Shown: piece by piece, positions 2,767-25,345 of the stretch | Position numbering within the stretch: position 1 is the first letter of the stretch | Layout: each line of letters begins with the position of its first letter | Source of the DNA: a virus | DNA: 36,052 nucleotides | Direction: 5' to 3' (one strand) | IMG/VR virus record: IMGVR_UViG_3300037042_003768 | Span: 1-36,052 of that record | The notes under the pieces: model-generated | Told to the model about the DNA's origin: nothing | What the model saw: the letters and a program-made list of their open reading frames with translations, nothing else | The model's database searches: none | Program-made: the position numbers and the translations under genes

Positions 2767-4391
2767 TAGAATCTCCGCCCGAGGCGCTTGTTACGCGCCT
2801 CCCACGCGGGCATGTTCTCGTCTAGGAACTGCTGGGCGGATCGGAGCGAGAGGCCAATCTTGTCCGCGGGGGCGTCGCCGTGCACCGCGAGATTGATCGT
2901 CGGTGCGAACGCGCCCCCGGATACGCTGTAGCTCCCGCCGGCCAGGGCGGAGGCGCGCGTTGCCGGGTCGAAACCGGGAGTGAGGATGGTGGGGCCGGTG
3001 GGGGCGGATCCGCCGCCGGTGGATCCCGCAGCCTCTCCCGTTCTGTTCAGATCGGCCACGGCCTTAGATGCAACCGCGTTGACGGCCACGATGCTGGCCG
3101 CGTAGAGGGCGGCCAGGGCCGGGTTGACAAAGGCGTACTTGGCTGCCTGAATCGCCAGCCACTTCGTCGCCTCGGCCGCGGCAATCTGAATCGACTGCAC
3201 AGCCGCCTGCTTCCACGCCTTGGTGTTCCCAGCCGCCGTCTCTCCCACCGCCGCGCCGATAATGGACATGCTCTGGGCGATGTAGGCGGCCCGACGTTGC
3301 TCGGACGCCTTCTCTTCCGCATCGGACTTGGCGCGGTTCGCCTTGATCTCCGCCTCGGCCTTGTTGTGCAGATCCTTCAGGCGCTTCTGGAGGCGGATCT
3401 CGATCAGCTCGATCTGCAAAGCCTTGTTCTTCGCATTCTCCACGCTCATCTCGACGGCCTGGCGTTCCAGGTTCGCCGCTTGCTGCATGGCCAGGGCGGT
3501 CAGCACAAGACCCTCGATGGTCAGGTCGTCGGCGTTCGTCTGTGCCTCGACCTTCTCGCGCAAGAGCCCGAGGTACTCGATCTGTGCGGCCTTCTCCGCC
3601 TTCTGCGCCTGCTCAATGGCCTGCTTGCGTCTTTCCGCCGCAGTAGCGGCTGCGTCCATCGCCTTGCTGCCGCCGCGAAGGGCGAGAATCTCTGCATCCA
3701 GTTCCGTGTTCAATTCACGAATGCGCAGGGCGAGTTCCCCCTGCTTGGCAGCCAAGGCGGTAGCGCGGATCGTGGTGTCGCCGAAGATCTCCCGCACCTT
3801 CTGCCAGAACCCAAGACTGATCTTCCCGGCCTCAACGGCCGTCAACTCCGCTTCTGCCTTGGCCAGCAGAGATCGGGTAGACGCCTGGTGAACGATGATC
3901 ATCTGCCGCTCGGTCTCATTCGCCACGCCACTCTCTTTCGCCATGGCGATCAAGGCATCGGCGTTGTCATCGATCGCCTTCTTGAGCTTCTTCTTCGCGT
4001 TCACCAGAGCGATCGCAATGGCGACGGCAGCCCCGATCGCCGCAATCACCAACCCGATCGGACCGAGCATTCCAGTCATAGCGTCGGCCGCCACGCTCAC
4101 ACCTCGGGCGACCCCCTTGTTGCTGACCCCGAGCGCCTCCATCTGCCCGGTACAGATCGAAGCCGCCATGCCGTACTTGACGACCTTCTCGCCCGACATG
4201 GAGAACGATCCGCCGGCCTTCGTCGCCGCGGATGCAGCCGCCCGCTCCTGCTCGCTGAGCTGGTTCCCCGCGGCCTGTACCTTCCGCAGATCGGCGATGT
4301 ACTTCTGAATGTTTCCGGAGAATTCATCAAGAGCCGACAGGATGACTCCCGCCCGCTCCATTCCTCCGGCCGCACCAGTCTCAGAAGCCAT
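2766..4391 (-). CDS. Tail tape measure protein, short form (541 aa)
   Basis: The protein is almost wholly helical and rich in Ala, Lys, Glu and Gln. Residues 107-130 form a hydrophobic segment (PIGLVIAAIGAAVAIAIALV), followed by long coiled coil to about 360, then Gly/Ser-rich sequence. It follows the G/GT frameshift genes and overlaps the GT stop by 11 nt, the standard place for the tape measure. At the usual ~1.5 angstrom per residue it would specify a tail near 80 nm, short for a siphovirus. No lytic transglycosylase or peptidase motif is visible. Confidence 0.9.
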   Translation of the reverse strand: MASETGAAGGMERAGVILSALDEFSGNIQKYIADLRKVQAAGNQLSEQERAAASAATKAGGSFSMSGEKVVKYGMAASICTGQMEALGVSNKGVARGVSVAADAMTGMLGPIGLVIAAIGAAVAIAIALVNAKKKLKKAIDDNADALIAMAKESGVANETERQMIIVHQASTRSLLAKAEAELTAVEAGKISLGFWQKVREIFGDTTIRATALAAKQGELALRIRELNTELDAEILALRGGSKAMDAAATAAERRKQAIEQAQKAEKAAQIEYLGLLREKVEAQTNADDLTIEGLVLTALAMQQAANLERQAVEMSVENAKNKALQIELIEIRLQKRLKDLHNKAEAEIKANRAKSDAEEKASEQRRAAYIAQSMSIIGAAVGETAAGNTKAWKQAAVQSIQIAAAEATKWLAIQAAKYAFVNPALAALYAASIVAVNAVASKAVADLNRTGEAAGSTGGGSAPTGPTILTPGFDPATRASALAGGSYSVSGGAFAPTINLAVHGDAPADKIGLSLRSAQQFLDENMPAWEARNKRLGRRF

Positions 4392-4662
4392 CGCCGTCTA
4401 TCTCCTGCACGGGCCGAGCCCGCTCCGCTTCCTCGTATTCGATCTCCGCGAGCAGCTCCAGTTCCCGCACGTCCTCCGGTTCCAGCGGGAACTCGGTCCG
4501 AATCGTCACCACCGGAAACACCCGGCGGATCCAACGGAGCCAACGCGGCCACTCGATATCGACGTGGTGGAGAGTTCCCCGCTCAAGCTCCGATGGAATC
4601 CGCCCTGCATCTCGACAGATCCTCAGGAAGCTGCGCCGGCTGTAATCACCGGCTAGCTTTCT
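4381..4662 (-). CDS. T extension of the G-T frameshift fusion (93 codons after the slip)
   Basis: The frame is open from 4662 to TGA 4383-4381 and has no ATG near its beginning, so it can only sensibly be read by -1 frameshifting from the G-like gene. The fusion would be 114 + 93 = 207 aa. The extension is rich in Arg and Glu (for example EPEDVRELELLAEIEYEEAE) and overlaps the tape measure start by 11 nt. This is the lambda gpGT arrangement. Confidence 0.8.
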   Translation of the reverse strand, partial: RKLAGDYSRRSFLRICRDAGRIPSELERGTLHHVDIEWPRWLRWIRRVFPVVTIRTEFPLEPEDVRELELLAEIEYEEAERARPVQEIDGDGF

Positions 4663-5003
4663 TTTCCCTCTTGGTGCGCCTTCACCCCAAGGTCATTCAG
4701 CGCCAGCACCGCCTGCACGAGCTTGTCCATCTCGGCGCCGTCAGACTGGAGCAGCATCTCCAGGTCGGTGCGCTCGAACACGGGTTGCCCGTCTTCGTCC
4801 TGGGCCGACATGACGATCATAGCGAGAAGGTGCTGCGTCGCGTCGAAGACCTCTCCCTTCATGCCGCCGGCCCGGGCCTCTTGCAGCTCCGCGTAGCTCA
4901 GCTTGTGCAGGACGAAGTCAGCTCCGAACGCAGAGGCGGAGACCGTCTTCGGCTTCCCGGATCCGTAGCTGGTGACTGCACCCCTGATCTGGTCCCTCTT
5001 CAT
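4653..5003 (-). CDS. Tail assembly chaperone, G-like (116 aa)
   Basis: ATG 5003 follows GAGGA at a good distance and ends at TAG 4655-4653. Acidic helical protein starting MKRDQIRGAVTSYGSG, the size of lambda gpG-type chaperones. It lies between the major tail protein and the tape measure. Just before its stop is the slippery heptamer G-GGA-AAA, so some ribosomes should slip -1 and continue into the GT extension. Function: holds the tape measure before tail tube polymerisation (family knowledge). Confidence 0.85.
   Translation of the reverse strand: MKRDQIRGAVTSYGSGKPKTVSASAFGADFVLHKLSYAELQEARAGGMKGEVFDATQHLLAMIVMSAQDEDGQPVFERTDLEMLLQSDGAEMDKLVQAVLALNDLGVKAHQEGKES
4662..4668 (-). promoter_or_regulatory. 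-1 ribosomal frameshift site G-GGA-AAA
   Basis: The minus strand reads GGGAAAA with the zero frame split as G GGA AAA, the X-XXY-YYZ pattern. The zero-frame stop follows two codons later. Slipping -1 enters the only open frame leading to the tape measure. Confidence 0.85.
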
Positions 5004-5016
5004 GTATTCCTCTTTG

Positions 5017-5691
5017 TTACGAAGCTGCGTAAAGCAGCGGCCCGACGCCCTTGAACGAAACGGACTGTTCCAGAGCCCCGCCCTTCGGGACCTTTATTCC
5101 CCAGTCCACAAACGCGGTGCCGTACCAGTATTCCGTGCCGATGCCCTTCGCCGGGTAGAACCGCATCAGCGTCGGAGCTTCCGTGGTGTTGCCGCCCGGA
5201 CCACGAAGCCACCAGTCGGTCGCCTTGTAGAAGATCGTCGCGGAACCAGACCAGGAGCGGACTGTGGCCACAGTCTTTTCCCACGTCTGCATCTGCGACG
5301 TGATGTCGGCGGTTCCTTGCTTGCAGTCGATCGAGAAGTCACTGGAATCGCCGCACGGAAGCATGATGCAGGTTGCGATGGTCCCCAGCGTGAGGGTGTT
5401 TGAACTGCCCATGGCAGGAGTCGTGATGAACTTGCCACGGAGCCAGTCTATTTCTGTGGTCCACGCCGCGGGAGTTGATCCGCCCCCCCACGTCAGCAAC
5501 GCTCCCGTTGCCTCGTCAAGTGGCGGCACGGTCGTTGAGATTGTGAAGACCGAGTAAGCGTCGTAGGAAATCCCGTCGACTATCTCGGCCACGCTGTTCT
5601 TGGTTGTAACTTGCGAAGCAACCGCCATCGTGCCGTTCTGCAACCAGATCTGGCCGTACTTCCCGGATATTCGCTTGGTGATGTTCGCCAT
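5017..5691 (-). CDS. Major tail (tube) protein (224 aa)
   Basis: ATG 5691 follows AAGGAGGAGAACC, one of the best ribosome sites in the window, as expected for an abundant protein. The sequence is beta-rich throughout (MANITKRISGKYGQIWLQNG at the start) and of usual length for a tail tube subunit. It lies between the tail terminator-like gene and the G/GT chaperones, the canonical position. Its leader (5712-5761) is nearly the same as that of the major capsid gene, suggesting shared control of the two most abundant virion proteins. Confidence 0.85.
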   Translation of the reverse strand: MANITKRISGKYGQIWLQNGTMAVASQVTTKNSVAEIVDGISYDAYSVFTISTTVPPLDEATGALLTWGGGSTPAAWTTEIDWLRGKFITTPAMGSSNTLTLGTIATCIMLPCGDSSDFSIDCKQGTADITSQMQTWEKTVATVRSWSGSATIFYKATDWWLRGPGGNTTEAPTLMRFYPAKGIGTEYWYGTAFVDWGIKVPKGGALEQSVSFKGVGPLLYAAS

Positions 5692-5711
5692 GGTTCTCCT
5701 CCTTGTCGATC

Positions 5712-5761
5712 ACTGGGGAGAACCGGGAAGCTAGGGCCGGCTGGCCTGCTACGATCTCCTG
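5712..5761 (-). promoter_or_regulatory. Duplicated structured leader upstream of the major tail gene
   Basis: A 50-nt stretch matches 10480-10529, upstream of the major capsid gene, at about 42 of 50 positions without gaps. Read on the minus strand it has nested pairing: an outer GGAGA/TCTCC stem and an inner GGCC-AGCC-GGCC hairpin, with CCCTAGCTT to the 3' side. It lies between the previous stop (5771) and the ribosome site. Could be a promoter, RNA-processing site or mRNA-stabilising hairpin. Confidence 0.7.
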
Positions 5762-5770
5762 TCGGTTACT

Positions 5771-6874
5771 TCACGTCAGCGCGTCTTGCACCGCGTGGAA
5801 TTGCGTGTCGGACTCCAGTATCAGATAGGCGTTGTGCCGGTGAAGGATCTGCGCGGGCGATTCGATACCGGCCCGTACCGATCCCTTGACGATGAAATCG
5901 AAGACGCCGCAGGTGAAGTCGGCGCGCACATCGGCCGTGTGGGATGTCCCGGTAAGCAGCACGCGACCGCGCCATGGGTCGGTCTGTGTAGCGGCGGTGA
6001 TTACGCCGCCTACGCGCACGACGGGGGCGGGTGACGCGAACCACCCCTTCTGCCCGCTCGACCACCAGTCGCCACCGGAGATGTTCGCCAGCGGATAGCG
6101 CAATCCGCGCAGGGGGATCCCCGGGTACAGCGTCCCGGCAGAGTCGGGGGACAGCGCAGCGTCCAGGATCATCTTGGCCCAGTGAGTGTGGCGGTCGAGC
6201 TGATCCTCGCTGGCGCAGTGCAGGCCAATGATCGCGGAGAGGCGGTCCTGTCGGGTCAGATTCCCCAGCTCTCCCACGTCGTAGTTCTGGGCCGTGTCGC
6301 CAATGGTGATCAGGGGGATGGCAACGTCCGCGTCGGTTAGGTCCAGGTCGGGATGCAGGACATAGAACCCGCCATCGCCAAAGTCGCTCGGGGCTGGTTC
6401 GATGCGCAGGTCATCATACGCGCCGAGTTCCGAGCACCGCATCGCCGCATCGTTACCGCCGGACACGTACTGCACCCGCACACCGTCGATAGCCTGCGAC
6501 ACCGTGAAGCGAATCGTGTTCCAGCCGACCGCAAGCGCGACGGCGGTTGACCCCGTGATGTCTAACCAGGTCACGCCCACGCGGCCCCGCACCTTGACCG
6601 TGGGAGCTGTCGCCCCGGCGGGCCAGTAGTAGCGGATCCCGTCGACGTTCTTCGCAGCAGACCAGGTCAACTCCACGTAGGCACTTGACGTCGTGGTCAC
6701 AATCGCCGCGCTCGTCTCAGAGTCTACGAGCATCCCCACGGATCCCGAGGCGATGGCCGATGATCCCGGAGTTGCTCCCGCACCTAGGCTTGGCATGCAA
6801 GGCGTTGAGGCGAAGACATCGAACGAGGTCGTTGCTTCGAGGTACGCGGCGATGCTCTTCAGTACGTGCAACAT
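5771..6874 (-). CDS. Tail terminator-like protein with a discoidin-like insertion (367 aa)
   Basis: ATG 6874 shares one base with the preceding stop (TGATG); the frame is open further upstream, but that part overlaps the gp10-like gene. Residues 1-18 (MLHVLKSIAAYLEATTSF) and the region after ~165 look like one tail-completion protein. Between them, about residues 25-160, is a beta-rich block with VELTWSAAKNVDGIRYYWP and GWNTIRFT...IDGVRVQYVSGG, resembling F5/8-type (discoidin) carbohydrate-binding domains. Position between the gp10-like gene and major tail protein fits a terminator at the head-tail junction. The usual family is ~130-200 aa, so the extra domain is notable. Domain naming is by eye. 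Confidence 0.65.
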   Translation of the reverse strand: MLHVLKSIAAYLEATTSFDVFASTPCMPSLGAGATPGSSAIASGSVGMLVDSETSAAIVTTTSSAYVELTWSAAKNVDGIRYYWPAGATAPTVKVRGRVGVTWLDITGSTAVALAVGWNTIRFTVSQAIDGVRVQYVSGGNDAAMRCSELGAYDDLRIEPAPSDFGDGGFYVLHPDLDLTDADVAIPLITIGDTAQNYDVGELGNLTRQDRLSAIIGLHCASEDQLDRHTHWAKMILDAALSPDSAGTLYPGIPLRGLRYPLANISGGDWWSSGQKGWFASPAPVVRVGGVITAATQTDPWRGRVLLTGTSHTADVRADFTCGVFDFIVKGSVRAGIESPAQILHRHNAYLILESDTQFHAVQDALT

Positions 6875-7380
6875 CACGCGTACCCCTTCATCCCGTTGAC
6901 CAGGGCCTTGCGGCACTGCTCGACGTGCTTCGGGGCCTCGGCCTTGAGCGACTTGCGGAAGAAGCCCCACTCGCCGATGGTGTGGTGGAGGGTCGTGTCA
7001 TACTCCATGCGCATCGGGTACGAGTAGCCTGAGGCGATGCTGCACTTCCACGGGCCGGTCTTGTAGCCTCCCTTCGGCACGCGCGCCTTGAACGGCCGCT
7101 TGCGCCCACCGAAGATGGGGCGCTCGGTCCCGGGCGGGGGAGCAACCACGTTGGTGCCGATGCTCAGCTCGAGGCCGACATCGTCCAGCTTCACGATGTT
7201 GATGGACTGCTTCATCCAGCCGAACATGACCGGGGAGCGGACCTTGGCCCCGCTCTGAATCCGAACCGCCGAGACCATGTTCGCCCGCGCCACTCGCCGC
7301 TGGATGTCCGGCCGCTTCTCCAAAAGGCTCTTGATCCCCGGCGTTGCGAACGCCTTGGCTGCCGTCGCCAGCGCGGGCAT
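6874..7380 (-). CDS. HK97 gp10-like tail completion/neck protein (168 aa)
   Basis: ATG 7380 shares a base with the upstream TAA (TAATG). The basic protein starts with a helical section (MPALATAAKAFATPGIKSLL), has VSAVRIQSGAKVRSPVMFGWM around residues 36-56, and is of normal length for HK97 gp10-like proteins. It lies between the head-closure-like gene and the tail terminator-like gene, the conserved order in HK97-type phages. Confidence 0.75.
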   Translation of the reverse strand: MPALATAAKAFATPGIKSLLEKRPDIQRRVARANMVSAVRIQSGAKVRSPVMFGWMKQSINIVKLDDVGLELSIGTNVVAPPPGTERPIFGGRKRPFKARVPKGGYKTGPWKCSIASGYSYPMRMEYDTTLHHTIGEWGFFRKSLKAEAPKHVEQCRKALVNGMKGYA

Positions 7381-7760
7381 TACTGCCCCCCCTCGCGCAA
7401 GCGCAGGTAGACGACTACCCGGTTGTGCCGGGGATCCTCAGCGATGGCGTAGGGTGTCCAGGTCAGTCCCCCGCGGGTCACGACCACGTCCGGCTTGATC
7501 CATGCGGACCAGGTCGCGTCTTCTTCGGGCACGTTTCCCGGTTCGTAGAGGAGCTGCGCCTCGCCGGCCTGGATCACGCCGTGCACCACGCCTTGATTCG
7601 CGTCGTAACGCAGCTCCCGGCGCGGAGCGGTCACCCACACCACCGGGACCGAGTAGGTGAGCGCCGCCCCGCCCGAGAGCGTCTCGCCGGTGTGCGGATC
7701 GGTGTTGATCGCCGCGGTCGGGACCGAGACCGTCACTGTTTCCTGCGTCGAATTGAGCAT
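7380..7760 (-). CDS. Head closure / head-tail joining protein (126 aa)
   Basis: ATG 7760 lies 2 nt after the connector stop. The small beta protein MLNSTQETVTVSVPTA... contains WIKPDVVVTRGGLTWTPYAI and ends RVVVYLRLREGGQ, consistent with SPP1 gp16/HK97 gp9-type stoppers. The frame extends upstream to 7949, but that part overlaps the connector gene and looks like noise. Confidence 0.65.
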   Translation of the reverse strand: MLNSTQETVTVSVPTAAINTDPHTGETLSGGAALTYSVPVVWVTAPRRELRYDANQGVVHGVIQAGEAQLLYEPGNVPEEDATWSAWIKPDVVVTRGGLTWTPYAIAEDPRHNRVVVYLRLREGGQ

Positions 7761-7762
7761 GG

Positions 7763-8713
7763 TCAGACCTGCCGCCGGTACGGCTGCAAGAGCCCCTTGG
7801 CCTCGGTCTGCATCTCTTTGATCTGCCCGGCATACTGCATCTCGCCGTAGTCCTCTTTGAACGGCCCGGCCGAGACACTCACGGCCCCGCCGGCGGATCC
7901 AGGGTGGTCCTTGGTGCCCTTGTGCGAGAGAACGCTCCCCGCGGCCCATTCGACAGCCGCCCCTCCGATCGCCGCGGGCACGTAAGCGAACAGGTAGGTT
8001 GCCATCGCGGAGTAGCTCGCAGTCGGTATGCTCAGGCTTCGGCTATCGATCATCGTCCAGTTGGCCGAATCGTCGACACCGTTCTTGAGCATGGCGAGCG
8101 GTGGGCGGGTGCTGAGAAGTGCCCCCTCGTTACAGTTCGCGTACGGTTCCGCACAGGTAAACACCTTCGCCGAGGAAACGGTCGTGATGGTCCCGATCCG
8201 TTGCACCCCCAGGGTAGCTAGAACGGCCAGCCCGACGTTGTCCCCGACCTGGACGAACCCGGAGCGGTACTGCACGACGATGTTGTGATCGCCCGTAGCG
8301 AAAGCTCGCTGGTACTGATTGATCGATCCGCCCATCGGCCCCTGCACGGCAAAGGACGGCCGCAGCGAGATGATCCCAGTCTCCTGGTCCACCCGCAGCG
8401 CGTCCGGGCCGAAGGTGGTTCCACTCGACAGCGGGTCATACTTCACGTCGACCTGGAGGATGTCGATGATCGGGAAGTGCTTGAGCATGAGCCGCGGCCT
8501 GCCCTTGCCCGAAATCACGTCCATGCGCTTGGCCAGCGGCGTAAAGTCGCGCCCGGTGTACTGGTCCACCCACGCCTCGGCGCCATCGAGATCCGCCGTC
8601 AGCAGCCGGTCCAGGTTGGCCGTGCTGCCACCCCAGCGGGTGTCAGTGAGCACGTCGAGGCGAACCCCGTGCAGGCGCGCCTTCAGCTCGTTGACATGAG
8701 CGTAGCGCGGCAC
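7763..8713 (-). CDS. Head-tail connector (gp6-like adaptor) with internal insertion (316 aa)
   Basis: GTG 8713 directly follows the preceding TAG. The N-terminal ~100 residues are helical and end in YTGRDFTPLAKRMDVISGKG, typical of gp6-like adaptors. The C-terminus (KEMQTEAKGLLQPYRR) resembles the end of the same family. The middle is longer than the usual ~110-200 aa family and carries a beta-rich block (residues ~100-230). Neighbours on both sides are head-tail joining genes. Confidence 0.7.
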   Translation of the reverse strand: MPRYAHVNELKARLHGVRLDVLTDTRWGGSTANLDRLLTADLDGAEAWVDQYTGRDFTPLAKRMDVISGKGRPRLMLKHFPIIDILQVDVKYDPLSSGTTFGPDALRVDQETGIISLRPSFAVQGPMGGSINQYQRAFATGDHNIVVQYRSGFVQVGDNVGLAVLATLGVQRIGTITTVSSAKVFTCAEPYANCNEGALLSTRPPLAMLKNGVDDSANWTMIDSRSLSIPTASYSAMATYLFAYVPAAIGGAAVEWAAGSVLSHKGTKDHPGSAGGAVSVSAGPFKEDYGEMQYAGQIKEMQTEAKGLLQPYRRQV

Positions 8714-8962
8714 CTACGCCTCGGGCGCCGGGGGCGTGTCGGTGTCTTCGGGCTCACCAAGGATGAACTGATTCGGGTTCGCTAGGTAGACAGCCTGCTC
8801 CCGAGTCACCCACGCCTTGTCCGTCTTCGTGAAGTCGACCTCGGTCCCGTCGCTTAGGTGCACCCTGCACGGGCACACCAAGCACCGGCACAGAACCAGG
8901 TTCGGGTCCCGCAGTTTCGCCGCGATCGACACGTCTGCGGTCTTGATGACTTCCTTGACCAT
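8714..8962 (-). CDS. Small cysteine-rich protein downstream of the capsid gene (82 aa)
   Basis: ATG 8962 has AGGAG 5 nt upstream; an earlier ATG at 8995 lies in the intergenic hairpin region and is less likely. The protein has a tight CRCLVCPC motif near residues 24-31 (possible metal site), an HLSDGTEVDF stretch and an acidic Pro-rich tail. Small proteins at this position are often head accessory proteins, but I recognise no family. Confidence 0.65.
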   Translation of the reverse strand: MVKEVIKTADVSIAAKLRDPNLVLCRCLVCPCRVHLSDGTEVDFTKTDKAWVTREQAVYLANPNQFILGEPEDTDTPPAPEA

Positions 8963-8976
8963 GTTCGCTCCTGTCT

Positions 8977-9047
8977 GGAAGGTCGGCGGGGGCAAGCCCC
9001 AGAGGATTCGGCAAGGCTCACAAAGCCCGCCCCCGCCCCCGCCTTCC
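8977..9047 (-). terminator. G/C-rich hairpin between the capsid gene and the next gene
   Basis: The 87-bp gap after the capsid stop holds an inverted repeat: GGAAGG plus CGGGGGC near 9047-9035 pairs with GCCCCCG and CCTTCC near 8993-8977. A GGGGGCGGGGGCGGG tract lies on the coding strand. There is no U-run, so it is more likely an attenuator or RNA-stability element than a simple terminator. Confidence 0.45.
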
Positions 9048-9049
9048 GT

Positions 9050-10462
9050 CTACGCCGTGTTCCGGACCCGGGCGATCCGGGTCAACGCCTGCTCGATGCA
9101 GATCAGGCAGTAGTACCCGGCCACCAGGAACCACTTCTTGTCGCTGATCGTGGCGAGTTCCATGTAGCTCAGATCGCGGAGCGTCGGCATGTGCAGGGTG
9201 TTCCCCTCAATGCCGGGCACGCTGGTGGTGCAGAGCCAGATGTCCTCTTCAGCGGTCAGAAGTTCGTCCACGACGGCGGAAGCTGCCGTGAACTCCGTGC
9301 CAACGGGCGTGTAGGCCGCGCCGGTGACGACGGATGTGGCCGTGGTCTGAAGCGTGCGGACACCCGTGTCGATCCAGCTTGACACGTCCGTTGCGGTCAG
9401 GAAGCCGAAAGCGTCTGCCGTGTAGTTGGTGCCAGGGATCACCGTGTAGAGCGATTCTGACCCGGCACCACCCGCAGCCGCCGAGCGGTAGATCTTGTAG
9501 AGGCGGACGGACCCGGTTGCCGTCGGAGCGGTCCAGGCGAGGGTGACTTTTCCGTTACCACCACCACCGGAAACGGTCCCGGTGACGGTGGAACAGGGAA
9601 GGGTCTCGCCCGTGAGCAGGACCGCGGAGACGAAGTAACGGTAGGCACCATCGGCGACGGACCCGCCCGATGTCGCGGGCGTCGCGGTCACCGTGCTGCC
9701 CGGCCACGCCTGGTCAGACTGGATCATCGAGGTGCAGAAGATCGGGATGTTCCGGTAGCTCTTGAACCGGAACCCGCCCGGAACCTCGACCATGTCGTTC
9801 CACCTCTGCCCCGACGACTGCTGCAACGCGGAGATCCGCGACAGCATCTTGTGAGACATAATGAAGAACGAGTTATTGGGATCCAGGATCGTGCCGATGC
9901 GGTTCTGCTGCGTGTCGATGGCAGTGTCCAGATAGGACGTCGCCACTGCCGCACCACCGCCGGAAACGATGTTCGCGTTGCCCGTCTGGCTCCACTGCTC
10001 CAACCCCGAAAACATGTACGGATCGGCGTACTTGTTCCCGTAGAGGATCATGCACGCCTCTTCGTTCGCACAGGAGATCGTGGAACCGGCCACTTCCTTC
10101 TGGAGCGCGTCCACGAGTTCCTGCGAGGCGGCCTGCATGAACCCGGTGACGCCGCCCTTCCCCTGCATGATCTTCAGGGGCTCCTGGAAGCGCGCGTAGG
10201 TGCTCTGCGTCTCGGGCGCGGAAGTGCCGTCACCCACCATGCGGGCGCGGCCGAGCGCTGTACGCCTGTTCTTGTCGTAGGTGCCCGACTTCCACGGCGT
10301 GCGAGGGATGAGTTGCCGGAACGGGCTGTACTGTAGGGCAAGCTCTGAGATGTAGGGGTCTACGAGCTGCGGGATGAGCGCCTGCCCCGACGCGGTCGTC
10401 GAGTCCAGGGCCTTGTTGATCAAGTCTTCCGGGCTCCACGGCCCGGCACCAAGCTGGAACAT
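9050..10462 (-). CDS. Major capsid protein, HK97-fold, with an Ig/FN3-like insertion (470 aa)
   Basis: ATG 10462 follows GGGGAGG. Residues 1-245 and 396-470 form the capsid core: early ALIPQLVDPYISELALQ, then a QEPLKIMQGKGGVTGFMQAA beta/E-loop region, NSFFIMSHKMLSRI, and a hydrophobic C-terminus. Between them, about residues 252-395, is a Gly/Thr/Ser-rich beta domain (TLAWTAPTATGSVRLYKIYR), like an Ig or fibronectin-III module. Such insertions are known to decorate capsid surfaces. It follows the protease-scaffold gene, as expected, and has its own structured leader. Confidence 0.9.
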   Translation of the reverse strand: MFQLGAGPWSPEDLINKALDSTTASGQALIPQLVDPYISELALQYSPFRQLIPRTPWKSGTYDKNRRTALGRARMVGDGTSAPETQSTYARFQEPLKIMQGKGGVTGFMQAASQELVDALQKEVAGSTISCANEEACMILYGNKYADPYMFSGLEQWSQTGNANIVSGGGAAVATSYLDTAIDTQQNRIGTILDPNNSFFIMSHKMLSRISALQQSSGQRWNDMVEVPGGFRFKSYRNIPIFCTSMIQSDQAWPGSTVTATPATSGGSVADGAYRYFVSAVLLTGETLPCSTVTGTVSGGGGNGKVTLAWTAPTATGSVRLYKIYRSAAAGGAGSESLYTVIPGTNYTADAFGFLTATDVSSWIDTGVRTLQTTATSVVTGAAYTPVGTEFTAASAVVDELLTAEEDIWLCTTSVPGIEGNTLHMPTLRDLSYMELATISDKKWFLVAGYYCLICIEQALTRIARVRNTA

Positions 10463-10479
10463 TGTGAACCTCCCCTTGG

Positions 10480-10529
10480 AGTGGGGAGATCCGGAAAGCT
10501 AGGGCCTACTGGCCTGCGTCGGTCTCCTG
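10480..10529 (-). promoter_or_regulatory. Duplicated structured leader upstream of the major capsid gene
   Basis: Counterpart of 5712-5761. On the minus strand it carries GGAGA...TCTCC outer pairing and an inner GGCC-AGTA-GGCC hairpin; the loop changes from AGCC to AGTA between copies while the stems are kept. It lies between the protease-scaffold stop (10542) and the capsid start (10462). No other copy was seen in the window. Confidence 0.7.
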
Positions 10530-10541
10530 GTCATAGTCTCG

Positions 10542-11048
10542 TCAGCGGGAAGTTCCCGCCTTCTGCATCGCCTCGGCCAGCATCCCCTGTCGGGCGCCGG
10601 GGCTCGCGGCCTTGTACGCATCGGTCTGGCTCAGGGCCTCGATGTAGTTCCCGATCGTCGCCGGGGGTGCGCCGGTCCCGTCCGCGTGAATGCCCTTGCG
10701 CTCGCCCTTGAGCGCGTCGTTGTTGGCCTTCAAGGCTTCGTTGGCCTTGCCCAGCGCGTCAATCTTCTGGTTAGTTTCGGCCAGCGCCTTGAGGATCTTG
10801 TCGGCCTGCTCGTCGGTCATGTCCTTCGCTCCTTGCTCCGGCGCCGTGGGCTGCACGTCCTCAGACGGCGGCGGGTTCTGCTCCTGCATGCTCTTGACCC
10901 AGACGTGGTCGGTCTCGGTGACTTCCTTGACGCCACACCACCGGCCGCCCTTCCACTGCTCTTCGTCCGGCTTGTCCTCCGAGGGGGGAGGATCCTGGGC
11001 CGGGGGCGGAGGCGGCGGGGGCGGATCGGCCTTGTTCAGAATCGACAT
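10542..11048 (-). CDS. Nested scaffold from an internal start (168 aa)
   Basis: Inside the protease-scaffold frame, ATG 11048 (MSILNKADPP) follows AGGAGG with a 7-nt spacer, a better site than that of the full gene. It would make scaffold without protease, as lambda Nu3 is made within gene C. A second in-frame ATG at 10820 also has AGGAG upstream and would yield 92 aa. Expression is inferred. Confidence 0.5.
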   Translation of the reverse strand: MSILNKADPPPPPPPPAQDPPPSEDKPDEEQWKGGRWCGVKEVTETDHVWVKSMQEQNPPPSEDVQPTAPEQGAKDMTDEQADKILKALAETNQKIDALGKANEALKANNDALKGERKGIHADGTGAPPATIGNYIEALSQTDAYKAASPGARQGMLAEAMQKAGTSR

Positions 11049-11726
11049 ATCGGTTCCTCCTGCTTCGGTTCCTTCGTCGGCATCGGGGGTGACGGGGTTC
11101 CCTTCGGGATTCGCCGCCCGGCGCCAGTCAACGGCCTTGCTGATATCTGCGAGCCAGTTCCTTGCGAACTGCCTTGATTTCACTTCCATCCCGTCGATCG
11201 TCGCCCCGGGATAGGCCGGGCACGAGGTCACGGCGACATGTTCAAGCTCAATGGCGTCGATAACGCGCGTGGTGTTACCGTCCGGACCCGGCTCCACGAA
11301 CCAGCCGCCTTCCAGCAGCCGGCCACCGATCGACAGGCCGAGCTTGCGCGGGGCAATCCCCTTCGCAGGGTCTCCGTCGAGTCTCCGCTTGAGCGTCTGG
11401 CAGTAGGGCATCTCCTTGTCCAGCCAGACGCGGATCTCCAGCTCGCCCGATGGGTCGATCGTGCCGTCGCGCAGGAAGCCCATCTCCTCATCCCAGTCCC
11501 CCCAATGCGACTTGCGAAGCGGAACCTGCCCGGATTGAATCTGCGCAACCATCGAGGCAATGCACCGATCAGAGACGCGCTCCCCTTGCAGGTCCAGCCG
11601 CGGGCCGGACGCGACACCCACTAGCCACCAGTCTCCCCGGTCGTCAACTTGCGCTTTGGCCAGGTAGGTAGTGATTTTGAACCGGTTCCGCATGTCCACC
11701 GCTGGCCGATCCATCGTCTCAGGCAT
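10542..11726 (-). CDS. Prohead protease fused to scaffolding domain (394 aa)
   Basis: ATG 11726 is favoured because GGAGG sits 4 nt upstream; an ATG one codon earlier is too close. The N-terminal ~185 residues are a U35/S78-type prohead protease: His in RKSHWGDW (~74), Ser in LGLSIGG (~132) and Glu in ELEHVAVTSCPAYPGA (~162). A proline-rich linker (~232-300) follows, then a coiled coil (MTDEQADKILKALAETNQKI) typical of scaffolds. The protease should cut scaffold and capsid N-termini during maturation. Strong internal starts suggest free scaffold is also made. Confidence 0.85.
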   Translation of the reverse strand: MPETMDRPAVDMRNRFKITTYLAKAQVDDRGDWWLVGVASGPRLDLQGERVSDRCIASMVAQIQSGQVPLRKSHWGDWDEEMGFLRDGTIDPSGELEIRVWLDKEMPYCQTLKRRLDGDPAKGIAPRKLGLSIGGRLLEGGWFVEPGPDGNTTRVIDAIELEHVAVTSCPAYPGATIDGMEVKSRQFARNWLADISKAVDWRRAANPEGNPVTPDADEGTEAGGTDMSILNKADPPPPPPPPAQDPPPSEDKPDEEQWKGGRWCGVKEVTETDHVWVKSMQEQNPPPSEDVQPTAPEQGAKDMTDEQADKILKALAETNQKIDALGKANEALKANNDALKGERKGIHADGTGAPPATIGNYIEALSQTDAYKAASPGARQGMLAEAMQKAGTSR

Positions 11727-12613
11727 CATTCCTCCGCGTCGGCAACGTCGTAGACAAAGTCACCGCGGCAGTTGGGGTGAAAGTCCTCTGCCTGGGCCTG
11801 CTGCATCGTGAGGGGGTCGGCCTCCGTCTCCGCAGCCCGCTGTAAGCACGCATCGCAGGCGTCTGCCGCCTCGCTGCGCACAACCCCATCAACCTTGACC
11901 CCGAGTTCGTCCACGGCCGCCTGCGTCGTGGCAAGGTTGCCGTACCGGCACGACATGGCGATTTCCGTTCGGGCAATGCGCAGCGTCTCCCAGTCTTCGA
12001 GGTCGTCGAAGAGGTGCCCCATGTTGTTGCGGGCCTCGACGAAGGTGTGCCCGTCTTCGATCTCTCGCTGGAGAGCCTGACCGACAAGGTCCTTGGTGGT
12101 TGCGGAGATGTCCACGAGCACGCCCTTGTCATAGGCGTGAACGCGCTGGAAGTCGGCCGCGATCCGGCTATACATGGATTCATCAAACGACATCCCAAAC
12201 TGGGCCATGACGGCCTTAGCCCGGGCCCGCAGGGACCGCTCCACGTGGTCATTGATCCCGCCACGATCCGAGAGATCTTCGGCAAGGTTCCCGGTGATGT
12301 ATCCCGATAGATCATTGAGCCACTTCACATCCGCCGGACTCATGTCCTTGGCGGACCCCTCCGGAATCGGCCACCGGTGCGCATGTTCCGCAAGCGCATC
12401 CATGCCCCGCTTTCGCAGAGCCCGGAACACGGTGCGCAGTTGTTTGCGCAAGCTCGCTTCTAGTTTTCTCCCAACGGGCGAGCGCGGACCGCTGCGGATT
12501 CGGATGCGGGCTCGGTTGTCGCCGGCCCCCCGGTCCGGACTTGTTCGTCCGGGCCAAGAACGGCCAGCCTGTACCTCCCTCCGGTTTTGATCCGCCAAGA
12601 AGGGCACCACCAC
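11726..12613 (-). CDS. Minor head protein, phage Mu F-like (up to 295 aa; start uncertain)
   Basis: The C-terminal half is a MuF/SPP1 gp7-type domain: WETLRIARTEIAM, then ADACDACLQRA and DFHPNCRGDF, a likely zinc site. Helical sequence RKLEASLRKQLRTVFRALRKRG marks the probable true N-terminal region. The open frame begins at GTG 12613, but its first ~35 codons look like noise while the portal frame there looks coding. Real coding seems to pass from portal to MuF near the six-G run at 12526-12531. Either a start lies inside the portal's 3' end (GTG 12433 or ATG 12403), or the two genes were one fusion with an indel. The role, head assembly and possibly DNA ejection, is family knowledge. Confidence 0.75.
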   Translation of the reverse strand: MVVPFLADQNRREVQAGRSWPGRTSPDRGAGDNRARIRIRSGPRSPVGRKLEASLRKQLRTVFRALRKRGMDALAEHAHRWPIPEGSAKDMSPADVKWLNDLSGYITGNLAEDLSDRGGINDHVERSLRARAKAVMAQFGMSFDESMYSRIAADFQRVHAYDKGVLVDISATTKDLVGQALQREIEDGHTFVEARNNMGHLFDDLEDWETLRIARTEIAMSCRYGNLATTQAAVDELGVKVDGVVRSEAADACDACLQRAAETEADPLTMQQAQAEDFHPNCRGDFVYDVADAEE

Positions 12614-14090
12614 CGATGCCGCCGCCCGTGCCTGAATTCATCGGGAAGGGCCAGGCGCCTTGCAGCGCAGCAGTAGCGACTGTGCTAGCCCCTCCCGACA
12701 CATCGAGCCCAAGGATCTGCCCCGTCTGCATGTTGAGCGGGTAGTCGTAGACACAAACCTCGTCCCCGTTGTCGAGGATCACCGTCGGTTGCGTGAAAGG
12801 CTCCAGTCCCCGCTCCCGACGCAGTTCATTCAGCGGGCGACCCGATCCGGCGAACGTCGCCCAAACCTGAGCCTCTTCCAACTCGTCCGTCTTGCTCTTC
12901 TCGGTGAACAAAAACTCAAGATCGGGGCTGAACTCGGACACCACATGCTGCGTCAGCTTGTGCGCGATGATCGCCAGCTCGGGGCCGGTTCCCTTGTCCG
13001 CGTGAATCTCCCGCTGCGATTCCCCGGCCGCGCGCGTGAGGTGCGCCTGTAGTTGGATGATCTCATCGGCCGAGGTCTGGTACACCGCGCAGATCCGTTG
13101 AAACACCCACTGCTCGAACTGCTGAAACTCCATGTCGCGATTGGTTGACTTGAGCGTGAAGAGCTTGGCCCCGGCCCCGCCGTCTTCCACGTCCTTGATG
13201 ATCGGAAGCTGCCAGCCTCGGCCCTTGATCGCCTCGAAAGCCTCGTTCATGCGCTCCAGAACCGCGGCGCCGGCCCGGCCCATGATCAGAAGGTGGTCCG
13301 CGAGGTTCCCGTCCGTGAACGCCGAGATGTTGTGCTGCATCCCGAAAACGTCGGCGCCGATCTCAAGCGACAGCGACTCCAGGGGGGAGAATCCCCAGAG
13401 CTTCCGCGTGGAGGGGTTGGCCCGGAAGTAGATCAAGTCGCGCGGGCCGAACTCGGCGGTGAGCTCCTTCCCGTCGCGTTGCTTCACGACCTGCCGATAC
13501 CCGGTCAGGCGCCCGTGCGTATCGGCGAACGGAATGATGGTCGATCCGTCCAGGGGGACCAGCTCCACGAGTCGTGCGTCTGCCGTGCGAACCTTCTCGA
13601 TTGCACCGGCATCGAGCACGAAGATGTCTCGCAGCACCGACAGCCAGAACTCCGTCCACGAATCGCCGTTGCTGTTCGGCCGGTTCAGGAGCCGCTTGAC
13701 GCGCGCCTTGGCGAAGGGATCAGAGACCGTGTCTTCGTCCGGCGGGTTCACGTCCCATTCCAGCCCCGCGATCTGCCGACACTTGGTGTCGACCACGGCC
13801 CGAACGAGCGCGTTCTGCTCATAGACTCGGTTCATCGAATCAAAGCTGAGCACGCCCCGCCGGTGCGCGTCCGGAGACGACTGCTGAAACGCGCCCGCGC
13901 CCTCGATGTCGGATCGGATTCCACGAGCCTCGCCGACGTCAAGTAGGGGCGACCCGCCTTGCTTCTTCAACCAAGAGACCGCCCACAGAACGTCCCGCAG
14001 GTCTATCTCCTGCCCCGGGGTGGCCAGGGCAACCACCTCGTCGGGAACGGGCCGGCGGAACGCACGGCGGAGTCGGTCGCCGAGACCCAT
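12312..14090 (-). CDS. Portal protein (592 aa as open; last ~70 codons doubtful)
   Basis: ATG 14090 (MGLGDRLRRAFRRPVPDE) starts 1 nt after the previous stop. The HK97/SPP1-type portal core is clear: ALVRAVVDTKCRQIAGLEWDV, DPFAKARVKRLLNRPNSNGD, YFRANPSTRKLWGFSPLESL, and TSADEIIQLQAHLTRAAGES. After about residue 525 the sequence becomes Pro/Ser/Arg-rich and overlaps the better-coding MuF frame by 302 nt. The portal is the dodecameric DNA channel at the capsid vertex, next to TerL and MuF as usual. Confidence 0.88.
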   Translation of the reverse strand: MGLGDRLRRAFRRPVPDEVVALATPGQEIDLRDVLWAVSWLKKQGGSPLLDVGEARGIRSDIEGAGAFQQSSPDAHRRGVLSFDSMNRVYEQNALVRAVVDTKCRQIAGLEWDVNPPDEDTVSDPFAKARVKRLLNRPNSNGDSWTEFWLSVLRDIFVLDAGAIEKVRTADARLVELVPLDGSTIIPFADTHGRLTGYRQVVKQRDGKELTAEFGPRDLIYFRANPSTRKLWGFSPLESLSLEIGADVFGMQHNISAFTDGNLADHLLIMGRAGAAVLERMNEAFEAIKGRGWQLPIIKDVEDGGAGAKLFTLKSTNRDMEFQQFEQWVFQRICAVYQTSADEIIQLQAHLTRAAGESQREIHADKGTGPELAIIAHKLTQHVVSEFSPDLEFLFTEKSKTDELEEAQVWATFAGSGRPLNELRRERGLEPFTQPTVILDNGDEVCVYDYPLNMQTGQILGLDVSGGASTVATAALQGAWPFPMNSGTGGGIGGGALLGGSKPEGGTGWPFLARTNKSGPGGRRQPSPHPNPQRSALARWEKTRSELAQTTAHRVPGSAKAGHGCACGTCAPVADSGGVRQGHESGGCEVAQ

Positions 14091-14091
14091 G

Positions 14092-14475
14092 TCAGTGCTT
14101 CCGCCCGAACATGCCGCGCATCCCCTCGACCACACCCAGCCCTCTCCTGCCGTTGCCCTTGAGCGCGGCGTTGGCAATCTGCTCATTGATCGCCGCTTCC
14201 TGCGCTTGCTGTTGCGCGCGGGAGAATGCGGCCATGGTCGCCGCTGCCTGTAGGTCCGATTGCAGCTTGGCCTCGACGTCCGCGAGGATGGCACGGATGT
14301 CTGTCGCGGTGGCGACTCGCTCCACGTAGTCCTGCTCGGGCGTGAGAGGGTGAATCATCACGCCCGCGCCGTTCGGCTTGAGGAAGAAGACCACACCACA
14401 GACGGCGCGCGGAGACGCGGGTTGTTCTGGTGTCGGCTGCTCGGTCGTTTCCTGTTCAATCGGTTCATCGGTCAT
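14092..14475 (-). CDS. Conserved-position phage protein between terminase and portal (127 aa)
   Basis: ATG 14475 overlaps the TerL stop (ATGA) and has GGAGG 9 nt upstream. N-terminus is acidic and Pro/Gln-rich (EQETTEQPTPEQPASP). The middle is a predicted helix AKLQSDLQAAATMAAFSRAQ, and the C-terminus is basic. No family recognised; small proteins in this slot are common in HK97-like modules. Confidence 0.65.
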   Translation of the reverse strand: MTDEPIEQETTEQPTPEQPASPRAVCGVVFFLKPNGAGVMIHPLTPEQDYVERVATATDIRAILADVEAKLQSDLQAAATMAAFSRAQQQAQEAAINEQIANAALKGNGRRGLGVVEGMRGMFGRKH

Positions 14476-16019
14476 CGTGTCAATCCTCCGATCAGAGATC
14501 CCCGCAGAGCGTTTCCCAGATGCCGCCGGTCCCGGTCGGCGTCCGTCTCTGCGGCTGGGTGAAGCAGGTCCACCTGCGGCCCACGAAACGAGAGCGTTGA
14601 GAAGCTAGCGCCCGGTTTGGCGAACAGCGACGCAGCCAGCGACCCCGCCACAATCGAGTCCGGCGGGTGCCCGGCCCCGTACAGGTCGTCATGCGTGCAG
14701 CGCTTGTGCTCCTTGTACGCCCACTCGATGAACGGGGCCTCGAACTTCCCCGCTTCGATGGCGAGCACGTACCCGGAGAACAGCTCTTGCCGCACCTTGC
14801 CAGCCAGCCAGACGCCTTCGGCCCGAACCTGCAAGAACTGGTCAATCACGTCGCCCAGCCCCGTGCCGTCGTGCTTGGCTCGGCCCCCGAAGCGGCGTTG
14901 CCGATCATCGAGCAGCGCGGTCAGGTCCGGCCAGTCGGTGCGCCCCCGCCGCTCGAACGCGACCAGGCGAGCCGGGGAAACGTCGGTGCGGAACGTCCAG
15001 ATGATGCACCAGTCCGTGCGCCGGCCCCAGTCAGCCCCGTGCGCGTAGTCCGCGTTGGGCTGCGGCCCCTCGATTTCGATGTACTCGCCGTTGTCGCCTT
15101 TGAACTCGCCCAGGTCGCGGCGGAACATGCGATCGACGGCGGCTCCCGAGATCGCCCGCGCTTCCGCGTTCGGGCGTTGAAGCTCTACCTCGACATTCCA
15201 CGACTCCGCGCTCATGGTCGCCCGCTTGCGCTCTTTCACGGCCTCGGTGAGCCACGCGTCCGGACCGGCCATGGACTCCTTGGCGCACCACTCATGCACA
15301 GGCCATCCCTCGCGCTCGGCTTCGTCGAGGATCGCGGTCATCGTCCCGTCTTCGTACTGGTGCGTGCTGCTGAGCACGGTCTGGCAGAGGATCCCTCGGC
15401 TGTCTTGCGGCATTCCCCGCGCGGCCTCGAAGATGTCCCACTCCATTTCATCGCACTCATCCGCGCGGAACCTCTGCGGGTGTGGGCCGCGCACGGACGC
15501 CTGCGAGGCAAGCAGTGCCTCGATGCGCGCGCCGTTCGAGAGGCGGGTCGATCTCCCGGTCGGGTCGGATTCGAGAAGCTCCCGTGGGGCGAGCGGCTGC
15601 CACCAGAATCCCTGCATCGCCTCATGCACGCGCTTGGCCTGCTCGCCCGATCCGCCAAGGATCTTCACGTCGGCACCCAGGGCCGCAGCCTCGACCAGTC
15701 CGAGCGCGGCGAGCAGGTAGCTCTTGCCACCCAACCCGCGGCTTGCCTTCCAGACCGACACCGGGACACGGGCGAAGAACGCTTCGGCGAACGCGCGCCA
15801 CGGCGTCGAGTGGTTCGGGCAGACCTGCACGTCCGGGATGCGCACCCCGAAACGCTGGAGCATGTAGGCGCGGAGCTGGTCTTCGGTTTCGAGGGGGAGA
15901 GGAACCAGGTCGACCTGCTGCGGGGCGCGCCGGCGAGCGAAGACTTCGGCGAGCGCCTGCGTTGCGTTGCCCGTCGCCCGCTTCAGTGCGGGGCGCTCTT
16001 CCATGAAGACGGGAATCAC
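14472..16019 (-). CDS. Terminase large subunit (515 aa)
   Basis: GTG 16019 overlaps the TerS stop (GTGA) with GGAG upstream; ATG 16004 is an alternative. ATPase motifs: a variant Walker A KASRGLGGKS at 91-100 and Walker B with FRADECDE at 184-191. Nuclease motifs: Asp330 (HGADWGRRTD), Asp384 in AKHDGTGLGD, and Asp454 in GHPPDSIVAGS. It pumps DNA into proheads and cuts the concatemer. It is followed by portal and preceded by TerS in one chain. Confidence 0.92.
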   Translation of the reverse strand: MIPVFMEERPALKRATGNATQALAEVFARRRAPQQVDLVPLPLETEDQLRAYMLQRFGVRIPDVQVCPNHSTPWRAFAEAFFARVPVSVWKASRGLGGKSYLLAALGLVEAAALGADVKILGGSGEQAKRVHEAMQGFWWQPLAPRELLESDPTGRSTRLSNGARIEALLASQASVRGPHPQRFRADECDEMEWDIFEAARGMPQDSRGILCQTVLSSTHQYEDGTMTAILDEAEREGWPVHEWCAKESMAGPDAWLTEAVKERKRATMSAESWNVEVELQRPNAEARAISGAAVDRMFRRDLGEFKGDNGEYIEIEGPQPNADYAHGADWGRRTDWCIIWTFRTDVSPARLVAFERRGRTDWPDLTALLDDRQRRFGGRAKHDGTGLGDVIDQFLQVRAEGVWLAGKVRQELFSGYVLAIEAGKFEAPFIEWAYKEHKRCTHDDLYGAGHPPDSIVAGSLAASLFAKPGASFSTLSFRGPQVDLLHPAAETDADRDRRHLGNALRGSLIGGLTR

Positions 16020-21567: not shown

Positions 21568-22172
21568 GAGCGCATCTCCCGGTCCAGCTTCGTACAGACG
21601 GCCAAGAAATCCGCCCTGCCGCTGTCACAGGTGCTGTCCCAGTCGCTGGCCCTGGCCCAGGCGCTGTCCCAGGCGCTGTCGCAGGCGCTAGCCCAGGCGC
21701 TGTCGCAGGCGCTGGCCCAGGCGCTGGCCCAGGGGCTGTCCCTGGCGCTGGCCCTGGCGCTGGCCAGCTCTTCTTCCGTAGCCTCCCCGCGCGCGAATCG
21801 CTCCGCCACGACAATGACGGCCTCCGACCCCGGGGCCAAGTGCATCACCTTCCGGACCTGTTGACAGGCGTACAGCCGCAGCTCGCGCGAGATATCACGC
21901 CGCCAGAGTATCTCCCGGTGCCGCGAAGCGAGTTTGTCTACTGGATTGCCGTGATACACCACCTCGCCCCACTGGCGCACCCGGCACAGCACCGGCCCGG
22001 ACGCGTACTGGAGCGCGTCCATCGGATGCTCCGACCCGTGCAGCCCAGACTGGCACGGGATAATCTCCGGCTCGTCCGTGGTGTAGATGTAGCCCGGCTC
22101 CGAGTCCGCGCAGAATTGCGTGGTCCCGTCTTTGCGGCAGAACCACCAGGACAGGATCTTTTTCTCTCTCAT
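21564..22172 (-). CDS. DUF7666-like protein with C-terminal Ala-Ser-Ala-Trp repeats (202 aa)
   Basis: ATG 22172 (MREKKILSWWFCRKDG) is preceded by GGGAGGCGATCAG; the frame upstream of it overlaps other genes and is not used. The N-terminal ~120 residues (SGLHGSEHPMDALQYASGPV, LCRVRQWGEVVYHGNPVDKL, REILWRRDISRELRLYACQQ) resemble a phage/bacterial family (DUF7666-type, from memory) whose members often end in Ala/Trp/Arg tandem repeats. Here residues ~142-190 are (A/D)-S-A-(W/C/R) tetrapeptides from a 12-bp DNA repeat. Biochemical role unknown. Confidence 0.7.
   Translation of the reverse strand: MREKKILSWWFCRKDGTTQFCADSEPGYIYTTDEPEIIPCQSGLHGSEHPMDALQYASGPVLCRVRQWGEVVYHGNPVDKLASRHREILWRRDISRELRLYACQQVRKVMHLAPGSEAVIVVAERFARGEATEEELASARASARDSPWASAWASACDSAWASACDSAWDSAWARASDWDSTCDSGRADFLAVCTKLDREMRS
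21621..21768. repeat. 12-bp tandem repeat (about 12 copies) inside the DUF7666-like gene
   Basis: The plus strand repeats GCGCTGTCCCAG/GCGCTGGCCCAG with variation (GCAGGCGCT, CTGGCGCTG). On the coding strand each unit gives four codons, (G[A/C]C)(AGC)(GCC)(TGG/TGC/AGG). Unit length is a multiple of three, so copy number can change without breaking the frame. Confidence 0.85.
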
Positions 22173-24570: not shown

Positions 24571-24711
24571 TTACCCCGACCGCGACCGCGACCACGACCG
24601 CGACCACGACCCCGACCACGACCCCGACCGCGACCGCGACCACGACCCCGACCACGACCCCGACCACGACCGCGACCACGACCGCGACTCCACGAACAGC
24701 GTCGATATCAT
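24571..24711 (-). CDS. Ser-Arg/Trp/Gly repeat protein (46 aa)
   Basis: ATG 24711 overlaps the stop of the 113-aa gene (ATGA). After MISTLFVE comes 19 dipeptides Ser-X with X = Arg, Trp or Gly, coded by hexamers TCGNGG, then TAA. The overlapping start favours this frame. A competing frame through the same repeat gives a Val/Ala/Gly hydrophobic peptide ending in LALILTQTEET at 24527, in GTGA overlap with the next gene, and cannot be excluded. Confidence 0.45.
   Translation of the reverse strand: MISTLFVESRSWSRSWSGSWSGSWSRSRSGSWSGSWSRSWSRSRSG
24574..24687. repeat. Hexanucleotide tandem repeat TCGNGG x19
   Basis: The minus strand is 19 uninterrupted copies of TCGNGG (N = C, T or G), seen on the plus strand as CCNCGA repeats. 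All three frames stay open because the unit is 6 bp without stops, so the choice of frame rests on the flanking starts and stops. Confidence 0.9.
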
Positions 24712-25144: not shown

Positions 25145-25345
25145 TCAAATCCCGTCCCCGTACCCCGACCCGTCCCCGTGCCCGTCCCCGTACCCCGACA
25201 CGACCCCGTCCCCGTACCCCGACCCGACCCCGTCCCCGTACCCCGACCCGTCCCCGCCCCCCGACCCGTCCCCCGACCAGTACCCGTACCCGCACCCGTA
25301 CCCCGACCCAACCGATAGCTGTGCATCCTCGCCGAGAGATGCCAT
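25145..25345 (-). CDS. Ser-Gly-Tyr-Gly-Asp-Gly repeat protein (66 aa)
   Basis: ATG 25345 shares a base with the upstream stop (TGATG), which fixes the frame among three open ones. After [12 protein letters not shown] the protein is 53 residues of Gly at every second position with Ser, Tyr, Asp, Cys or Val between, including four SGYGDG units (18-bp DNA unit). Such Gly/Tyr/Asp repeats occur in small phage proteins of unknown role. They may be disordered, adhesive or metal binding; no assignment is made. Confidence 0.6.
25151..25309. repeat. 6/18-bp tandem repeat coding SGYGDG
   Basis: Coding-strand units GGGNNN combine into 18-bp TCGGGGTACGGGGACGGG (SGYGDG), present four times with degenerate units between. 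As at 24574 and 21621, unit length keeps the frame. Confidence 0.85.

Follow-up and report, generated by a model that had tools for sequence, protein, structure and literature searches.

The leader of gene 10 of phage T7, which encodes the major capsid protein, and the T7 RNase III sites are structured or processed leaders that raise capsid expression within a late polycistronic mRNA. Phage T4 provides a precedent in the leaders of genes e, soc, 49 and I-TevI, in which a helix sequesters the Shine-Dalgarno sequence (PMC3014915). In Cluster K mycobacteriophages, the 13-bp SAS (GGGATAGGAGCCC) is present in 11-19 copies per genome upstream of many genes, and ESAS carries 17-bp inverted repeats (PMC3203893). 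Here we describe a duplicated element of ~50 nucleotides (nt) in an uncultured tailed-phage record, IMG/VR IMGVR_UViG_3300037042_003768; the whole stretch of 36,052 nucleotides is called the window. One copy precedes the gene for the major capsid protein (MCP) and the other the gene for the major tail protein. We tentatively propose, at a probability of roughly 0.4, that the repeat acts as a structured RNA leader between cistrons, setting capsid and major tail expression apart from that of their late-operon neighbours, mainly at translation initiation.

SAS/ESAS is the closest described arrangement, an inverted-repeat sequence upstream of start codons in a subset of genes and nearly all in one orientation (PMC3203893). 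However, the window element differs in sequence, copy number and target genes, having 2 copies ahead of the MCP and major tail genes only, and GGGATAGGAGCCC was absent from both window leaders. The T4 e and soc leaders are alike in that an upstream strand of a phage mRNA leader hides the ribosome site in a helix, and soc is a capsid protein gene (PMC3014915). In leaders of this type, the Shine-Dalgarno sequence is buried in the longer transcript, and a late promoter within the structure yields short transcripts that are translated well. For both window leaders, a helix burying the Shine-Dalgarno sequence is predicted as part of the minimum free energy (MFE) structure (P 0.0005-0.07, depending on what is held fixed). 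By contrast with T4, the window has a second, exclusive predicted stem on the same strand, a duplication at two genes and no visible internal late promoter. The T7 sites form longer duplexes and are not common to tail genes as the window element is; no sequence relation between them and the window is known. Structured leaders are known in phages as a kind, and no report of leaders common to MCP and major tail or sheath genes was found in the open-access literature.

A duplicated element ahead of the MCP and major tail genes

The late genes of the window lie on the minus strand, and the element is therefore to be read on that strand. The two copies are as follows.

10482..10529, minus strand: copy 1 of the leader element, before the MCP gene (covariance model R1, 75 bits)
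5714..5761, minus strand: copy 2 of the leader element, before the major tail gene (covariance model R1, 74 bits)

The duplication reported in the preliminary description was confirmed. The core copies were identical at 41/48 positions (85%), and a gapped local alignment covered 69 nt at 78% identity (E 5e-10 within the window). Outside the 127-bp end repeat of the record and simple tandem arrays, this was the top-scoring 48-nt pair in the window; the best pair in each of 30 dinucleotide shuffles of the window reached at most 34/48. The pattern GGAGA-N5-14-GGCCN4GGCCCTAGC occurred exactly twice in the window and in none of 100 shuffles. A third covariance model match, at 15921-15959, was rejected, as it lies inside the terminase gene and has no inner hairpin.

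Both copies are noncoding and were correctly placed shortly before a ribosome site: each lies 9-12 nt past the upstream stop codon and ~20 nt ahead of the start codon, in an intergenic gap of 79 nt in both cases. Unlike these gaps, the junctions of the adjacent late genes are mostly overlapping or abutting. Two larger apparent gaps, before the portal gene and the presumed tape measure gene, are probably due to uncertainty in a start codon and to a frameshifted tail chaperone, and no third copy was found at the presumed tape measure gene. Family matches agreed with the earlier assignment of the downstream genes as major capsid and major tail, and within this genome the copies indeed precede no other gene.

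14472-16019, minus strand: terminase gene
12312-14294, minus strand: portal gene
10542..11729, minus strand: head maturation protease gene, with its stop codon 12 nt before copy 1 (phrog_1028 2e-7, phrog_80 2e-6)
9050..10462, minus strand: MCP gene, 470 aa (major head protein families phrog_212 2e-16, phrog_752 1e-14)
5771..6970, minus strand: open reading frame upstream of the major tail gene, with its stop codon 9 nt before copy 2
5017..5691, minus strand: major tail protein gene, 224 aa (phrog_1407 4e-7), with the likely frameshifted tail chaperone next

The 3' terminus of the protease gene contains a perfect 7-bp inverted repeat (GCGGGAA-G-TTCCCGC, 10545-10559), shortly ahead of copy 1; none is present ahead of copy 2.

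Predicted fold of the element

When folded alone on the minus strand, the two cores adopted essentially one common MFE structure (-18.1 kcal/mol for copy 1 and -17.8 kcal/mol for copy 2). GGAGAYCG pairs with CGG-N-UCUCC in an 8-bp outer stem with a 1-nt bulge, followed by a GC step of 2 bp (3 bp in the tail copy) and a GGCC-AGNN-GGCC hairpin. The GGAGA/TCTCC outer stem, the GGCC-N4-GGCC inner hairpin and the differing loop noticed earlier were all recovered, and the outer stem has to be corrected from 5 bp to 8 bp with the bulge.

10520..10527, minus strand: copy 1 outer stem 5' arm GGAGACCG, partner 10485-10493 with the bulge at 10490 (MFE fold of the element alone)
10485..10493, minus strand: copy 1 outer stem 3' arm CGG-A-UCUCC (MFE fold)
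10503..10514, minus strand: copy 1 inner hairpin GGCC-AGUA-GGCC (MFE fold)
5752..5759, minus strand: copy 2 outer stem 5' arm GGAGAUCG, with a U-G wobble in place of C-G (MFE fold of the element alone)
5717..5725, minus strand: copy 2 outer stem 3' arm CGG-U-UCUCC (MFE fold)
5735..5746, minus strand: copy 2 inner hairpin GGCC-AGCC-GGCC (MFE fold)

Of the 7 differences in the 43-nt core, only a C-G to U-G change affects the outer stem; the internal loop and the tetraloop have two each, and the remaining two lie in the 3' internal loop and the bulge. None of the 14 shared base pairs was broken. Random placement was equally good with P ~0.005, a value to be read with caution, as the structure was itself obtained from the two sequences being tested. 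The C-G to U-G change keeps the pair in the transcribed (minus-strand) RNA and gives a mismatch in the opposite strand. Compared with their own shuffles, the full leaders were more stable in the sense direction (z -2.0 and -1.9) than in the antisense direction (z -0.6 and -1.1). The stem-neutral substitutions support, short of proof, a conserved RNA structure, and the selection on RNA structure suggested in the preliminary description is upheld to this extent.

Two copies that are 85% alike in one genome, with none found elsewhere, would also be left by a recent copying or gene conversion event, in which case the repeat would have no function of its own. However, the similarity stops sharply. 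The placement relative to stop and start codons is the same, the gaps are equal, two particular genes are involved, and paired positions are avoided by the substitutions. We regard such a remnant as very improbable.

The inverted repeats could alternatively be protein contacts in DNA, as part of an internal late promoter or a site for a phage transcription factor. Extra promoters would be useful for the two most abundant products. Identity is high in stems and in single-stranded parts alike (CTAGCTT, AGGAGA), and a weak similarity reaching upstream to CGCTGACG would also fit a DNA element. By contrast, a one-base insertion puts the outer arms out of register, and the base change in one copy spoils the DNA symmetry and gives U-G in RNA. 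No sigma-70-like promoter was found near either copy, in a scan whose reach does not include phage-specific or host-specific promoters, and neither copy had a terminator-like site (G+C-rich stem with a T run). Relatives have different hairpins near the start codon instead, as described below. We favour an RNA leader over a DNA site because of the stem-neutral substitutions, the sense-only U-G change, the placement after the stop codon and ahead of the ribosome site, and the unrelated hairpins in relatives; a DNA-level element is considered unlikely.

Predicted alternative pairing with the Shine-Dalgarno sequence

In the MFE structures of both full leaders, the inner hairpin was kept, and the outer stem was opened with its 3' arm (UCUCCCC) placed on the Shine-Dalgarno sequence. 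This pairing had not been part of the preliminary description.

10466..10492, minus strand: copy 1 alternative hairpin GGAUCUCCCC/GGGGAGGUUC, with the MCP Shine-Dalgarno sequence buried (full-leader MFE; -17.3 kcal/mol)
5692..5724, minus strand: copy 2 alternative hairpin GGUUCUCCCC/GGAGGAGAACC, with the tail gene Shine-Dalgarno sequence buried (full-leader MFE; -15.1 kcal/mol)

As the 3' arm can be used by either the outer stem or the Shine-Dalgarno sequence, two mutually exclusive folds are predicted. The sequence downstream of the element is unlike in the two leaders, yet in each the predicted pairing continues past the Shine-Dalgarno sequence, and an A-U pair is exchanged for U-A. Against shuffled downstream sequence, the pairing in the MCP leader had P 0.0005 with the GGAGG core fixed and 0.07 with GGGGAGG fixed; the corresponding values for the tail leader were 0.03 with the GGAGG core fixed and 0.05 with the whole purine run fixed. 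A split ribosome site of the type in T4 genes 25/38 was rejected because the MCP and major tail genes each have their own strong, well-spaced Shine-Dalgarno sequence.

In the mechanism that we propose for the leader, folding of the bulged stem-loop would leave the ribosome site free, and the cistron would be heavily translated. Pairing of the 3' arm with the Shine-Dalgarno sequence would shut the cistron. The balance between the two folds may depend on the order of folding, on upstream ribosomes, on cleavage or on the binding of a protein, and mRNA stability is perhaps also affected.

Searches for the element elsewhere

Rfam release 15 gave no match in the window at the gathering threshold; the matches below it, to unrelated eukaryotic or viral families, were at chance level (E >= 0.12). 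In IMG/VR, exact and relaxed patterns of the element gave 2 matches, which were rejected because both lie within coding sequence and have no outer stem. A further 71 IMG/VR stretches resembled coding sequence or chance matches when inspected, and an apparent 43-nt cluster among them was largely one sequence sampled repeatedly. In the phage collection, the element query matched coding sequence only (E above 1), and the window major tail protein had no match. The genome contigs contained no relative of the window MCP and a single match to the element pattern, in an archaeal metagenome-assembled genome.

No close MCP relatives were found in the collections searched. Among cultured phages, the closest MCP belongs to Leptospira phage LE3 (~32% identity). 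Alignment with the LE3 MCP gave 42 IMG/VR loci, and a nine-sequence alignment gave 55, mostly at 29-37% identity. The window element was not found by BLAST of the MCP leaders or by a covariance model of the two copies across 59 loci, nearly all MCP relatives; the nearest relatives found have 27-37% MCP identity, and none carries it.

Unrelated hairpin leaders in distant MCP relatives

Two groups of distant MCP relatives had the same leader arrangement with other sequences, and their hairpins had no Rfam match either. The first group is represented by L098, a contig of 31,969 bases; L097 is a fragment from a relative. Across the whole L098 contig, a hairpin carrying the motif ATGTGYCTRG is present at three places, all on one strand.

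L098:7959: hairpin copy before the MCP gene
L098:12142: hairpin copy before the major tail gene (phrog_117 1e-10)
L098:16590: hairpin copy before the tape measure gene (phrog_1533 7e-62)

In the MCP and tail copies, the stems differ in sequence but stay complementary, and the tape measure copy consists of the shorter hairpin only. The tail region of L098 also contains two tRNA genes (14896-14969 and 15281-15354, minus strand), oriented against the late genes.

The second group (L083, L140/L141, L149 and L153/L154/L162) has a leader with a variable first hairpin and a near-invariant second hairpin, AACGUC-loop-GACGU, immediately followed by the Shine-Dalgarno sequence AAAGGA. A scan of the collection for this leader gave 17 stretches, at least 3 of them chance-like. 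In L141, L153 and L162, which belong to a myovirus group, the leader precedes both the MCP and the tail sheath genes, ~6.1 kb apart. The sheath gene of L154 runs past the contig end, and other fragments have the leader ahead of the MCP gene alone or the sheath gene alone. L083 has it ahead of its MCP gene and not ahead of its sheath gene. Sheath genes were assigned from the L083 sheath (phrog_23 2e-15) and from equivalent position and length, the L141 protein itself having no family match. The motif was also found before an SU10-type MCP gene in L155 (PF17236 6e-94) and before a P22-coat-like MCP gene in L167 (phrog_283 3e-5, from the 48-residue first exon only).

At the MCP and sheath loci of L153/L154/L162, L141, L083, L149, L165, L155 and L167, the AACGUC-loop-GACGUAAAGGA leader accompanies three MCP families without evident sequence relation. 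Some copies have a terminator-like, T-rich stretch after the first hairpin. The P22-coat-like MCP gene of L167 is interrupted after 48 codons (3038-3372; same sequence in L156) by what is probably a group I intron (RF00028, E 4.8e-10, slightly under the gathering score).

The window element has no sequence or structural identity with the leaders of L098 or of L083/L141/L153; what they have in common is that structured leaders precede the MCP gene and a major tail, sheath or tape measure gene. The recurrence of unlike sequences at the same genes in other lineages suggests that the function of the leaders is linked to the MCP gene and to the major tail or sheath gene. In the cultured controls lambda, HK97, TM4 and phiC31, the MCP and major tail leaders were unalike, and leader sharing is therefore recurrent but not general. 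A wider proposal is that tailed phages have repeatedly and independently gained short RNA leaders as marks of a stoichiometry regulon (MCP with major tail, sheath or tape measure). The genes of one lineage would have a leader in common, and the leaders of different lineages would be unrelated. The presence of AACGUC-GNGA-GACGUAAAGGA before three MCP families with no evident sequence relation would then suggest that it is read not by the capsid protein but by a shared host factor or a transferable RNA. We consider this proposal rather doubtful at present.

Other features of the window

A small open reading frame (4653-5003, minus strand) that separates the major tail gene from the presumed tape measure gene has G-GGA-AAA-G at its end (~4663-4670), and the -1 frame beyond this slip site is open for 93 codons; it is likely a programmed-frameshift tail assembly chaperone. 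Arrays of a degenerate ~12-bp repeat are located in the non-structural region (21609-21783, 24573-24692 and 25151-25333).

Translation initiation or mRNA stability

Several points weigh against a translational switch. The element is present in two copies only, and its fold was derived from them. UCUCC is complementary to any strong Shine-Dalgarno sequence, and the alternative pairing is therefore partly expected; with the whole purine run fixed, its P is 0.05-0.07. The pairing is also not a feature of the relatives, whose leaders mostly have a free Shine-Dalgarno sequence with no clear predicted sequestration and no comparable switch.

This layout, a hairpin upstream of a mostly free Shine-Dalgarno sequence, is the one expected of a 5' stabiliser. 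The late transcript would be cut near the element, and the stem-loop would guard the new 5' end, so that the capsid and tail mRNAs would be longer-lived without any switching. A compact bulged stem-loop 9-12 nt past the upstream stop codon suits such a role, and its AGNN-type loop and interrupted stem are reminiscent of RNase III-type substrates. However, the paired region (8+2+4 bp, with internal loops) is short for a classical RNase III site, and this reading does not account for the Shine-Dalgarno complementarity of both leaders. We regard a processing or stabilising hairpin as somewhat unlikely, and control at initiation is preferred over mRNA stability because the Shine-Dalgarno pairing is kept in both leaders.

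Phages need hundreds of copies of the capsid and tail-tube proteins and few of their operon neighbours, and control of this ratio is understood in few phages. The capsid and tail leader of the window suggests RNA control for the proteins needed in greatest number. A leader on exactly the MCP and major tail genes is a directly testable cis-element for that ratio, and repeats common to MCP and major tail leaders may serve as a marker for discovering further such elements.

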